64,000 nucleotides of DNA, from the NCBI RefSeq assembly GCF_023221595.1, contig NZ_CP096563.1, positions 3,491,501-3,555,500 of the forward strand, read 5' to 3'. The translations under genes and the position numbers were made by a program. The DNA is from Rhodococcus qingshengii JCM 15477. GTDB taxonomy: Bacteria; Actinomycetota; Actinomycetes; Mycobacteriales; Mycobacteriaceae. Shown in pieces: positions 13,501 to 25,500 of the stretch (position 1 is the stretch's first letter; each line of letters begins with the position of its first letter). Under the pieces are notes generated by a model. It saw only the letters and a list, made by a program, of their open reading frames with translations. It did no database searches and was not told the DNA's origin.

Positions 13501-16500
13501 CCGCGACCACGGGGGCGTCGAACAGTGCATTGACCCCCATATTGGTGTGCAATGCGGCGTTGATGCGGGCGATGACTCGAGTGGCGCTGAGGGAATCCCC
13601 GCCGAGTTCGAAGAAACTGTCGTCGGCACCCACCTGGTCGAGACCGAGAACGTCGGCAACAGCACGGGCGATTCCGATTTCGGCAGGAGTGGCGGGAGTC
13701 CGAAACGCAGCGCTCGCAAAATCAGTGTCCGGGAGGGCTTTACGGTCCAACTTCCCATGCACCGTCACCGGAAACTCCCCCAACACCACCACCACCGACG
13801 GCACCATGAACCCCGGAAGAGACCTCCGCACCCCCTCCAACACCACCACCTCATCGACCACCACCCCCACCTCACCCACCACAAACCCCACCAAAAAATC
13901 CCCACCCACACCCGACCGCAACACCACCACCGCACCAGCCACCCCCACCTGAGCAGCCAACACCGCCTCCACCTCACCCAACTCCACCCGCTGCCCCCGC
14001 ACCTTCACCTGAAAATCCGTGCGCCCCACAAACTCCAACACCCCACCACACCCCCACCGCACCACATCACCCGTCCGATACACCCGAGCACCCACCACCC
14101 CCGACACCGGATCCGCCACAAACCGACCCACCGTCAAATCCACACGACCCTCATACCCCCGAGCCACCTGCACCCCACCCACATACAACTCCCCCACCAC
14201 ACCCACCGGAACCGGCCGCAACCGCGAATCCAACACCAACACCCGCGTATTCCACACCGGCCGACCAATCGGAACACCCACCCCCACAACACCCTCCACC
14301 ACATGAAACGTCACATCCACCGACGCCTCCGTCGGCCCGTACAAATTCACCAACTCCGCACCACACACCCCCGCAAACCGCCCCGCCAACACCGACGACA
14401 ACCCCTCACCCGACACAAACACCCGACGCAAACCCGAACACCCCACCCCCAACTCCCCCACGCTCAACTCCCCCACGAACACCTCCAACATCGACGGCAC
14501 AAAGTGCACCACCGACACCCCCCACCGCTCGATCACACCCACCAAATACACCGGATCACGATGCCCACCCGGATCCGCCACCACCAACCCCGCACCCACC
14601 ATCAACGGCCAAAACAACTCCCACACCGACACATCGAACGACACCGGCGTCTTCTGCAACACCACATCCCCCACACCCAACGGAAACTCCCCCTGCATCC
14701 ACAACAACCGATTCACCACCCCCGCATGCGACACCACCACCCCCTTCGGACGACCCGTCGACCCCGACGTGAACATCACATACACCGCATGCTCAGGCAA
14801 CAACACCCCCAACCGATCCCCCACCCCCACCGGACCACCCGAAAACCCCGAAACATCAACACAACCCACATCAACAAACCCCACCCCCACCGGCAAACAC
14901 CCACCATCACCAACCCGCGACAACACCACCACCGGATCCACCACACCCACCACAAACCCCACCCGCTCCACCGGCGCACCCACATCCACCGGAACGAACA
15001 CCCCACCAGCCCGCACCACCGCAAACACCGCCACCAACAACTCCACCGACCGCGACAACGCCACACACACCCGCGACTCCGGACCCACCCCCAACGAAAT
15101 CAACAACCGCGCAAAACGATTCACCCGAACATCGAACTCACCCCACGACAACACCACCCCACCACACACCAACCCCCCACCACCCACACCAGCAAACCGC
15201 CCATCCAACACATCCACCAACGTCAAACCCCCCACCACAACCCCCACACCATCCCAACCACCCACCACCAACCCACGCTCACCGGCGACAAACACGTCGA
15301 CCTCACCGACCGGTGTATCCGCGTTCGCTGCAAAGGCGGCAAGAATCCGCGACATTCGCTGTGCAATGGTGTCGACCGCGGCGCGGTCGAATGCCGCCGG
15401 CTGGTACCGCAGGCTGACCTGCAGCGTCGGTTCCGCGACCGACAGCACGGTGAGCGGGTAATGCGTGGCGTCGCGGGCATTCACAGCGGTGACGCGCATA
15501 CCGGCAATGTCGGTGTTCCCGCCCATCCCCGAGGTATCGATCGGATACGACTCGAAGACCGACAGTGTGTCGAACAAATTGCCTGTCCCTACGACAGATT
15601 GAATCGCGCCGAGTCCGACATAGTGATGATCGAGCAGAGCTGTCTGCTCGCTTTGCAGTCGAGCGAGCAGCTGCGTACACGTCTCGTCCGGATCCAGTCG
15701 CACTCGGACAGGCAACGTGTTGATCAGCAGCCCCATCATGTTTTCCACACCAGGCAACTCGGGTGAGCGGCCCGAAACCGTGACGCCGAAGACTACGTCG
15801 TCACGGGAAAGCATCCGAGACAGTAGGACACCCCACGCCGCTTGGATCACCGTGTTCATCGTGATCCCGCTCCGTTGGACCAGCGCACCGAGTCCGTCGC
15901 GCACCGAATCGGGTAGATCGACGGCAACCTCTTCGGGCACCAGCTGCTCCGCGATCGGCGTCGAAGGCGCCAACAACGTCGGCTCGTCGACGCCTTCCAA
16001 GGCGTCCTCCCACGCCGCGAGCGAGGTCTCCATATCGCGGTGCATCAACCATTCCAGATAGGTGCGGTACGACGGAGTCTCGGGAAGATCGGCCGGGGCC
16101 CTCTCGACCGAGAGACTGTCGTCCGCGTATCGCATCAACAGTTCGCGAACCAGCAACGGCATCGACCAACCGTCGAGAACGATGTGATGGTTCGTCACCA
16201 CCAACACACACCTCGTCGGCGAGATTCGCAGCAACGTCAGCCGAAGCAGTGGCGGCGAAGCGAGGTCGAAGGGTGCACTGCGATCCTCGGCGAGGCGGCG
16301 CTCCAGATCTGCGTCGGTTACCGATCCGCGATCACTCAGGTCGACCTCGGTCCAGGGAATCACGGCATCGTCGACAATCAACTGCACCGGTAGGCCGTGT
16401 ACGTCGTAGACGAACGCTGCACACAGATTCGGGTGGTTTGCCAATAGTCCGGCAGCAGCGCCGCGCAAACGCTCGGAATCAACCGCTCCTTCGAGCTCGA

Positions 16501-22500: not shown

Positions 22501-25500
22501 GCGTCTTCTGCAACACCACATCCCCCACACCCAACGGAAACTCCCCCTGCATCCACAACAACCGATTCACCACCCCCGCATGCGACACCACCACCCCCTT
22601 CGGACGACCCGTCGACCCCGACGTGAACATCACATACACCGCATGCTCAGGCAACAACACCCCCAACCGATCCCCCACCCCCACCGGACCACCCGAAAAC
22701 CCCGAAACATCAACACAACCCACATCAACAAACCCCACCCCCACCGGCAAACACCCACCATCACCAACCCGCGACAACACCACCACCGGATCCACCACAC
22801 CCACCACAAACCCCACCCGCTCCACCGGCGCACCCACATCCACCGGAACGAACACCCCACCAGCCCGCACCACCGCAAACACCGCCACCAACAACTCCAC
22901 CGACCGCGACAACGCCACACACACCCGCGACTCCGGACCCACCCCCAACGAAATCAACAACCGCGCAAAACGATTCACCCGAACATCGAACTCACCCCAC
23001 GACAACACCACCCCACCACACACCAACCCCCCACCACCCACACCAGCAAACCGCCCATCCAACACATCCACCAACGTCAAACCCCCCACCACAACCCCCA
23101 CACCATCCCAACCACCCACCACCAACCCACGCTCGGGCGCGCCCAAAATTTCCGTATCCCCCACTGGCACTGTTGGATCCGACACGACCGACCGGAGGAG
23201 GCGGACGAAACGCTCGCCGAACTCGGCGACTGTGGTGCGCTCGAAGATATCGGAGGCATAGGTGAAGGCGGCATCGAAACCCATGGGGACGCCGTCTTTG
23301 CCACGCTGCTCGGAGAGCGACAGTTGCAAGTCGAATTTGGCGACACCGACGTCGACTGGAACAACATCGACATCCAGTCCGGGTAGTTCGAGGTGGGGAT
23401 CTGCGGTGTTCTGGAATTCCAACAGAACCTGGAAGAGCGGTGAGCGAGATGACGAACGCTCCGGCGCAACTGCATCGACGACTCGCTCGAACGGCACCTC
23501 GGCTTGTCCGAACGCTGCCAGATCGACTTCGCGAGTTCGTGAAAGGATCTCCTCGAAAGTCGCGGCGGTGTCAACGGTGATTCGCAGGACGACCGTGTTG
23601 ACGAACATCCCGACCAGATCGTCGAGGACTTGCTCGGCGCGCCCTCCTACCGGAGTCCCGATCGCTATGTCCGGCGAGGCGCTCAGCCGTGCCAACAGAA
23701 CCGCCAGCACTGCGTGCATCACCATGAACGGTGTCGCGTTGTGATTCCGAGCGAGTTCGAGGAGTTCACTGTGCACGTCTGCGGGCACCGAGAATCGGAC
23801 CGATTCACCGCGCATGGATCGTTCCGCCGGTCTCGGTCGATCCAGCGGAAGGTCGATCACGTCAGGTAGACCGGCCAGGGTGGACGTCCAGTAGTCCAAC
23901 TGCTTCGCCTCGAGCGTGTCCGGATCGTCGTCACTGCCGAGCAGTTCGATCTGCCATTGGCTGTAGTCGGCGTACTGCACAGGCAAAGGCGACCAGTCCG
24001 GTGCCCGTTTCGCAGCCCGCGCCGCGTAGGCGCGGGTCAGGTCGCGGGCCAGCGGCTCGAGGGATGCTCCGTCCGCCGAAATATGGTGAACCACCAGCGC
24101 AAGGACATGATCGTCCGGCGTGACCCGAAAAAGGGAGCCGCGCAGGGGCACGTTCGCGCTCACGTCGAACCCCTCGCGAGCGAGATCGGCGATGCGCCTG
24201 TCCAAGGCTTCCTCGTCCACGGATACTTCCCACGCGATCTTCGACGTCACGCGTTCCGAAGGCACTACTACCTGATGGGGGCCGTCGACCGACGCCGGGT
24301 AGACGGTACGGAGCGATTCATGCCGATCGACAACATCTCCTACCGCGCGCTGCATTGCAGCGACATCCAAGGCACCTGACAGTCGGACCACCATCGGAAT
24401 GTTGTAGGCCGGGGACGACGTGTCGAACTGATTGACGAACCACAGGCGTCGTTGTGCCACAGACACCGGAATCTTGTCCCTGTACGAATGTGCCTGCAGG
24501 ATTGGACGCTTCGAACGCGTGCGATCAACGCGGGATGACTTCGCATCCCGCACGTGACGGGCCAATGATTCGATAGTCGGTGCTTCGAACAAAGTCCGCA
24601 CCCCGAAATCGATTTCTTCAGCGGCATTTACTCGAGCGATCAGCTTCGTGGCAATCAGTGAGTTCCCGCCCAGCTCGAAGAAGTCGTCACCCGCACCCAC
24701 CGTCTCGACGCCTAGAACATCGGCAAAAATCTCGGCGAGCACTAGTTCCTCAGCGCCCTCGGGCGGTCGAAAGTTGTCCGACCGAGCATCGAACCGAGGT
24801 GAAGGTAAGGCAGCGCGATCGACCTTTCCCGCCGGAGTTACCGGCAACTCGTCGAGTAGAACAAATGCCGCAGGAACCATGTACGACGGAACACGGCTCG
24901 CGACGTACCGCGTCAGCTCGGCCGTCGAGAGCGCACTTCCGCCGGCAGGCACGACGTACGTGGTGATCATCGCTGTCCCGGAGGGAGCCGCCCGCGCCAC
25001 GGTGACTGCATTCTCGACCTGCGGACACGACCGCACGACGCTGTCGATTTCCCCGAGTTCGATACGAAATCCGCGAACTTTCACCTGGAAGTCACTACGA
25101 CCGACGTACTCGAGTCCACGGCCACGGCGCCGCCGCACCAAGTCCCCCGTTCGATACATCCGCCGGCCCGGGAGACCGAACGGGTCGGCCACGAATCGTC
25201 CTGCGGTCAACGCATACTTCCGGTGATATCCACGTGCGAGCGCGTCTCCCGAGATGTACAGCTCGCCCACAACACCGTCGGGGACGGGGTGCAATCGCTG
25301 ATCGAGCACGATCTCCTCGAAGCCGCGGAGCGGACCGCCCACTGTGATGTTCTCCGACGACACCATCGGCTCGCCGATGTTCGACATGACGGTGGTCTCG
25401 GTCGGCCCGTACGCATTGCACAGCCGGCGACCAGGAGCCCACCGCTGCACAAGATCCGGCGGGCAGGCCTCACCACCGACCACCACGTCGCCGAAGCCCG

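Follow-up and report, generated by a model that had tools for sequence, protein, structure and literature searches.

In Rhodococcus qingshengii JCM 15477, a single gene for a nonribosomal peptide synthetase (NRPS) contains two adenylation (A) domains that are identical in DNA sequence and intensely skewed toward G and T on the coding strand. The gene lies at 1583..28375, on the minus strand, of the 64,000-nucleotide stretch analysed here (the window; contig NZ_CP096563.1, positions 3,491,501 to 3,555,500). The two domains are those of module 2 (A2, copy N, 21581..23134) and module 4 (A4, copy C, 13727..15280), both on the minus strand. The explanation we favour, with a probability of about 0.72, is recurrent ectopic gene conversion between the two copies, accompanied by preferential fixation of G or T on the coding strand.

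Base-by-base comparison of the two 1554-bp copies, at a fixed offset of 7854 bp, gives 0 mismatches, and the repeat proposed in a first-pass annotation made from the sequence alone is thus exact, including its ends. Identity stops on both sides precisely at bases 13727/15280 and 21581/23134. At the same offset, 100-bp windows wholly outside the repeats are 20-37% identical, with a single one (15301) at 45%. Both copies are in frame (0 mod 3) within the open reading frame (ORF), with a spacing of 6300 bp between them. They lie inside a single contig of 6,405,102 bases, and this assembly, together with the relatives having two copies (see below), supports the copy number. In the whole genome, the next-best match after the two copies is 71% identical.

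The composition of the repeat is equally distinctive. On the plus strand, 52 of the 60 bases at 14041-14100 are C or A, and the A+C content is 0.82 in the repeat vs. 0.52 in the rest of the NRPS gene. Since the gene is read from the minus strand, the coding strand of the repeat is G/T-rich. Plus-strand GC skew ranges from -0.53 to -0.81 and TA skew from -0.34 to -0.83 in 150-bp windows wholly inside the repeats; for the whole repeat, the coding-strand values are 0.65 (GC) and 0.62 (TA), with a GC content of ~0.63. Both skews exceed 0.4 in 29 of the 638 300-bp windows of the 64 kb, and 29/29 fall on the two repeats, which bears out the earlier description of an intensely skewed unit distinct from the rest of the gene. 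None of 3168 such windows exceeds this value for both skews in sixteen other 20-kb stretches of the same genome (6 at arbitrary positions, 10 beside other NRPS matches or the two clusters), the maximum being 0.35. At third codon positions, the coding strand of the repeat has G 71%, T 25%, C 3%, and A 0.2%, vs. G 35%, T 16%, C 37%, and A 12% in the rest of the gene. Val and Gly make up 26% and 18% of the residues coded by the repeat, and 10% and 8% elsewhere in the gene. Predicted DNA folding amounts to about -5 and -4 kcal per 100 nt for the two strands of the repeat vs. about -18 elsewhere in the gene (10 vs. 78 windows), and TGG-phase triplets reach 0.305 vs. 0.068.

The history of the two copies can be followed within the genus. 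The repeat used as DNA query finds some match in 28/28 genomes, because A domains are common, and the orthologous region was taken from the 18 of 27 relatives with the strongest matches. Counting the present genome (G000), both copies are found in 15 genomes, at a distance of 7.74-7.87 kb from each other, and a single copy was obtained from 4. Identity between the two copies is 100% in G000 and G012, 99.9% in G022, 99.7% in G015 and G008, and 98.6% in G010; it is 95.2% in G027, 94.7% in G009, 94.5% in G006, 93.4% in G004, 92.7% in G026, and 90.8% in G011, and falls to 79.6% in G024, 75.8% in G017, and 74.1% in G003 (values for G010, G015, and G027 come from DNA alignments, since indels upset codon-based ones). 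The copies of one genome are thus 74-100% identical vs. 57-69% for 600-nt flanks in the 15 genomes, and in several genomes they are identical within the genome, not between genomes. In a tree, the two copies of a genome are sisters in 9 of the 15; those of G003 and G017 pair by position, that of G024 is split, and G006, G011, and G026 are not resolved. Gene conversion between the copies is well supported by these sequence comparisons. Across the 15 genomes, the stronger the GC skew, the more alike the copies are (Spearman 0.77, p 0.0008, without correction for kinship). One genus therefore offers a natural series, from weakly skewed copies that are 74% alike to strongly skewed identical ones, in which cause and effect can be ordered. 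As an aside, the copies of G010, a 4-contig genome, differ by 17 gaps of 1-2 bases, all absent from one copy, probably owing to base-calling trouble in G-rich runs or to decay.

Homogenisation and skew share their borders. In 12 of the 15 genomes, a homogenised block covers the A domain, beginning 0 to -74 nt relative to the domain start and ending -16 to +16 nt relative to the domain end; the shift in G/T content in these genomes is found no more than 139 nt from the start and 114 nt from the end. The homogenised part measures just 300 and 335 bp in G003 and G017 (95.7 and 97.3%), at the peak of their G/T content; this stretch also codes conserved motifs, so its identity is not due to conversion alone.

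The link between identity and skew also holds inside the domain. In G004, G006, G009, G011, G026, and G027, nt 700-1000 of the A domain form an island that is 73-77% identical between copies with a G/T content of 0.54-0.59, whereas the remainder of the domain is 95-99.8% identical with 0.69-0.76. In G000, G012, G022, G015, and G010, the same place is 98-100% identical with a G/T content of 0.72-0.81; in the window it corresponds to 22135..22434 in copy N and 14281..14580 in copy C, both on the minus strand and both identical and skewed. After centring within each genome, identity and skew correlate at the 100-bp scale (Spearman 0.56, 151/227 windows, genomes whose copies hardly vary being omitted), a value reached by 0/5000 circular shifts. 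In G008, the island is 100% identical while its G/T content is still 0.54, which means that conversion came first there. Skew thus seems to lag behind conversion. The island was also considered as a sign of differing substrate specificity, an idea rejected as the codes are the same.

What is lost and what is kept can be read from third-position singletons in the five high-skew genomes (G000, G001, G002, G012, and G022). The repeat shows 12 G>T and 9 T>G, vs. 0 G>A, 1 T>C, 2 G>C, 1 T>A, and 2 changes from C; about 31 G>A, 26 T>C, and 21 G>C would be expected at flank rates. Changes out of G/T amount to 0.008 per G/T site in the repeat vs. 0.171 in the flank, a 21-fold depletion (Fisher p 1e-16), whereas G<->T changes are similar (0.042 vs. 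0.032, p 0.68). Divergence at four-fold sites is 1.2-7.3% in the repeat vs. 10.7-44.8% downstream. If time is measured by G<->T changes, repeat and flank are equally old, and the repeat has lost one kind of change. Hence, low synonymous divergence within such repeats does not imply recent ancestry.

A second cluster of the same genome (C1:1.95-2.02 Mb) shows similar features. It contains three large NRPS genes with 20 A-domain matches, one of them partial. Among the 27 A domains of the two clusters (20 + 7), 11 are skewed and 10 of these have an exact full-length twin, vs. 0 of the 16 unskewed ones, where the longest shared exact block is 171 bp (Fisher p 1.3e-6). Twins were identified by direct comparison; a blastn self-comparison found 2 of the 4 identical A-domain pairs. 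The members of one twin pair belong to different genes, 36.9 kb from each other. An identical block of 4467 bp (C1:1994821-1999287, with its twin 6369 bp further) spans more than one domain and sits in a skewed tract of about 10.8 kb, exceeding in length the single-domain repeat of the window. In three orthologous genes of this cluster, as skew rises, G>A per G drops from 0.096 to 0.006, G>C from 0.106 to 0.013, and T>C from 0.238 to 0.070, while G>T goes from 0.046 to 0.026, T>G from 0.092 to 0.058, and C>T increases from 0.152 to 0.345 (windows with first-two-position identity <=0.85 were dropped and the upper bins hold 4-5 windows each; p 0.018 for the extreme contrast).

In two lineages, the modules between the copies are missing. 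In the window, this segment X (15281..21580, minus strand) comprises module 3, which has a further condensation/epimerization-type motif, flanked by the end of module 2 and the condensation (C) domain of module 4. In G002 (70 contigs), a single repeat links the C domain that precedes copy N to the carrier domain that follows copy C, and segment X has paralogue-level matches only (best 67%). A repeat collapsed in assembly looks different: in the draft G021, contig C41 ends inside the repeat and segment X is present on its own contig. G005 (4 contigs), from a distant clade, carries the same in-frame joint. In the A domain of G005, the flank of copy N is followed by the island of copy C, which places the crossover at about nt 500-700 of the domain. 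G002 groups with G000 and G001 in the flank tree, and G005 with G026 and G008, and two separate losses are the simplest reading of these sequences. Natural A-domain borders and in-frame module loss would be useful to NRPS engineers. Two further arrangements were seen. G005 has a tandem paralogue of the entire NRPS directly upstream of the shortened one. G001 has its NRPS broken within copy N: one end adjoins a sequence that we take to be 5S-rRNA-like, and the other adjoins the carrier domain of another NRPS, inverted and about 140 kb away. This break is possibly a rearrangement or a misassembly and is not used as evidence.

The number of modules is thus the feature that changes among related lineages. 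By contrast, the pocket code DVWHFSLVDK is found in 29 of the 31 translatable copies from the 18 relatives and this genome (G010_N, G010_C, and G027_C, with stop codons, are not counted). The first-pass annotation had proposed that the repeat sets Ser at two positions. This is not supported: the Ser code is also present in G003 and G017, where the copies are just 74-76% identical, so that Ser at both modules looks older than homogenisation.

To account for these observations, we propose that ectopic gene conversion has for a long time been copying two ancestral, working-looking Ser-type A domains onto each other. Conversion would be bounded at the junctions of the A domain with the C and carrier domains, where the likeness between modules ends. 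Each round would favour coding-strand G or T, so that changes to A or C are lost and G<->T changes kept, and the A domain would slowly be recoded toward a two-letter alphabet. The bias would act during conversion rather than via selection on the cell. As G/T-rich strands fold little and are rich in RecA-favoured TGG-phase triplets, skew may in turn promote recombination, and the process may be self-reinforcing. The same pairing would sometimes be resolved as a crossover, leading to the in-frame deletion of the intervening modules. The NRPS enzymes are presumably active. GC-biased gene conversion, which favours G and C on both strands, offers a parallel in that a fixation bias is tied to recombination; here, however, coding-strand G and T are favoured and the GC content is about 0.63.

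Several observations weigh against this proposal. In the intermediate clade (seven genomes), changes out of G/T show no depletion (0.139 vs. 0.151 in the flank); the G/T filter is not always on. The depletion result comes from one locus in five genomes, and biased conversion and selection for G/T predict the same substitution spectrum. G024 has a strong skew, yet its copies are 79.6% identical and do not cluster; it may be a relic left after conversion ceased. G008 and G005 lose G/T, G008 despite near-identical copies, and the comparison of single-copy (G005) with two-copy (G008) genomes gives no separation, as both lose G/T. Finally, in the second cluster, the skewed A domain at C1:1982272 has no twin.

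Selection on the cell could also maintain a two-letter alphabet, if G/T-rich coding DNA is useful as an unstructured, good RecA substrate and if mutations to A or C are removed for impairing recombination or expression. The weak predicted folding and the excess of TGG-phase triplets fit this idea, as does the preference of RecA for TGG repeats reported in the available text of PMC3763553 for the E. coli protein, and the same substitution rule is predicted. However, an effect of about 20-fold on single third-position changes would be needed, and the unskewed island in G008 and six others, with skew tracking identity per window, is unlike a domain-wide benefit. We consider selection on the cell unlikely to be what maintains the two-letter alphabet.

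Even less probable is a local mutational bias, in which exposed coding-strand deamination or transcription-linked damage would write the skew without any filter. It would agree with the fact that the skew is on the coding strand in both clusters of this genome, although they run opposite ways on the contig. With DnaA at C1:1301, both clusters may run with replication, in which case replication and transcription would not be separable as the source of strandedness. But four-fold sites go mainly to G and not to T (Val GTG 0.92, Thr ACG 1.00), a fact that led us to reject deamination of C alone as the cause. Moreover, hardly any ordinary transitions leave G/T (0 G>A, 1 T>C), and a bias toward G/T cannot remove such changes, while the borders lie at domain edges and islands occur inside the domain.

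Exactly identical copies could also reflect a recent duplication of one of the A domains or an artefact of assembly, and drafts do break at such repeats (contig C41 of G021), but this is very improbable given fifteen genomes with both copies 7.74-7.87 kb apart in different flanks, several of them identical within and not between genomes. The idea of a device swapping A domains to diversify or set substrate choice, put forward in the first-pass annotation, is just as hard to sustain: conversion does occur between distant A domains, even in different genes 36.9 kb apart, and the homogenisation part of that claim stands, but the code is unchanged in 29/31 copies and, within this NRPS, no relative was seen with a skewed tract bringing a new code into a module.

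As for what could impose the bias in biased gene conversion, a tentative and rather doubtful candidate is a blind spot of NucS mismatch repair. As described in the available text of PMC11551767 and PMC11551744, NucS acts on G-T, G-G, and T-T only, i.e. on keto-keto mismatches; the Mycobacterium smegmatis enzyme repairs these three in vivo, other tested classes not being recognised. NucS also acts as a barrier to recombination between diverged sequences: when it is lost, recombination is 3-, 10-, and 5-fold higher at 95, 90, and 85% identity, according to the parts available of PMC5290159. Two copies made of G and T only could form only G-A and T-C mismatches, invisible to NucS. A coding-strand change from G/T to A/C would give a heteroduplex seen by NucS in one direction of exchange and not in the other, whereas G<->T differences would never be seen. 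Assuming that one strand is preferentially used in the exchange, which sets the direction, a ratchet toward G/T would result, and its product would also be a good RecA substrate. The nearest published idea is found in PMC13061034, whose available text suggests that reduced NucS action during recombination could reshape paralogue composition in M. tuberculosis.

The change classes that the NucS model predicts as depleted (G>A, T>C, G>C, and T>A) and tolerated (G>T and T>G) match those found in the high-skew clade and, in graded form, in the second cluster, not those of the intermediate clade; any other G/T filter predicts the same classes. NucS_C is found in 27/28 genomes, the one without a match being 75% complete. 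MutS_V is found in 1/28, namely the present genome, with two neighbouring matches that exceed the family cut-off on a small contig (C6:108503-108895 and C6:110008-110427), which weakens the case a little. The share of within-genome copy differences that NucS would not see is 0.15-0.26 in seven two-copy genomes of intermediate or low skew, 0.25 in G026, 0.39-0.41 in G024, G010, and G015 (G015 from 5 differences), 0 in G008 and G022 (from 4 and 1 differences), and 0.20-0.29 in six flanks. NucS repair is described, in the text available, as short-patch and independent of homologous recombination, so the model may be wrong in detail. The gene yields a simple substitution rule, and the candidate cause can be put to the test by deleting one gene.

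Cyanobacteria and firmicutes use MutS, and since genetic repeats of intense nucleotide skews (GRINS) also occur in these taxa, NucS would not be the only route to such elements. The original 2021 abstract on GRINS is said to mention other gene families as well, and their discoverers reportedly called the origin of such skewed repeats unknown. In the available text of the papers that print thresholds for them, GRINS are at least 500 bp to about 1 kb long, with >80% identity to another region of the same assembly line (PMC9899208), often >90% (PMC10394414), and with cut-offs for GC and TA skew of >0.15 (PMC9899208) or 0.25 (PMC10394414). They are tied to gene conversion and are commonest in actinobacteria (PMC10394414, PMC9899208, PMC11907408), with less frequent reports from cyanobacteria and firmicutes. 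With 1554 bp, 100% identity, and coding-strand skews of 0.65 and 0.62, the present repeat lies beyond these thresholds, and concerted evolution and shared borders are the signs of gene conversion. The initial view of a GRINS pair is right in these respects; it has to be qualified in that the setting is not a polyketide synthase, the gene having NRPS domains only. Indeed, the GRINS described in the available text of these three papers are in polyketide synthases, whereas here the element is in an NRPS, corresponds to exactly one A domain, and combines 100% identity with a skew of 0.6. It is a GRINS-like element of an NRPS. The concerted evolution of biosynthetic-cluster domains described in PMC4256081 is comparable in that copies within a genome are more alike than orthologues; the text available there does not mention strand skew, whereas here homogenisation and skew share borders. 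In the openly licensed literature searched, no paper was found that treats GRINS in the A domains of NRPSs or that proposes a NucS cause; as far as this search goes, the A-domain setting, the order of conversion before skew, and the substitution rule are new.

From its ORF, Pfam matches, and A-domain codes, the NRPS gene is predicted to encode seven modules over 8930 aa with a terminal thioesterase. Pfam finds condensation, AMP-binding, carrier, and thioesterase domains, a further WS_DGAT_cat match below cut-off, and no ketosynthase or acyltransferase match in the gene. The A-domain codes in gene order are DAFFVGAVMK, DVWHFSLVDK, DALFVGAVVK, DVWHFSLVDK, DFWNIGMVHK, DGFFVGAIMK, and DAFTDVGVQK. 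Those of modules 2 and 4, which we take to denote Ser, together with the A-domain profile, make the repeat-coded domains predicted Ser-activating A domains; their PDB matches include EntF, a Ser enzyme. The early assignment to a Rhodococcus-type NRPS agrees with the host genus. In genus, seven modules, N-terminal condensation domain, and thioesterase, the protein is like the humimycin-type Rhodococcus lipopeptide NRPSs, as presented in the available text of PMC5550956.

Beyond these clusters, a scan biased by its query, from which no prevalence can be read, found over-threshold stretches of at least 500 bp in 11 of 78 loci: 8 from Rhodococcus (several already among the genomes used), 1 from Gordonia, 1 from Nonomuraea, and 1 from Minicystis. 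In the window itself, a shorter and weaker skewed stretch (-0.32/-0.34) is seen at 34111-34515, where it overlaps the beginning of a gene on the minus strand that has DUF222 and HNH domains.

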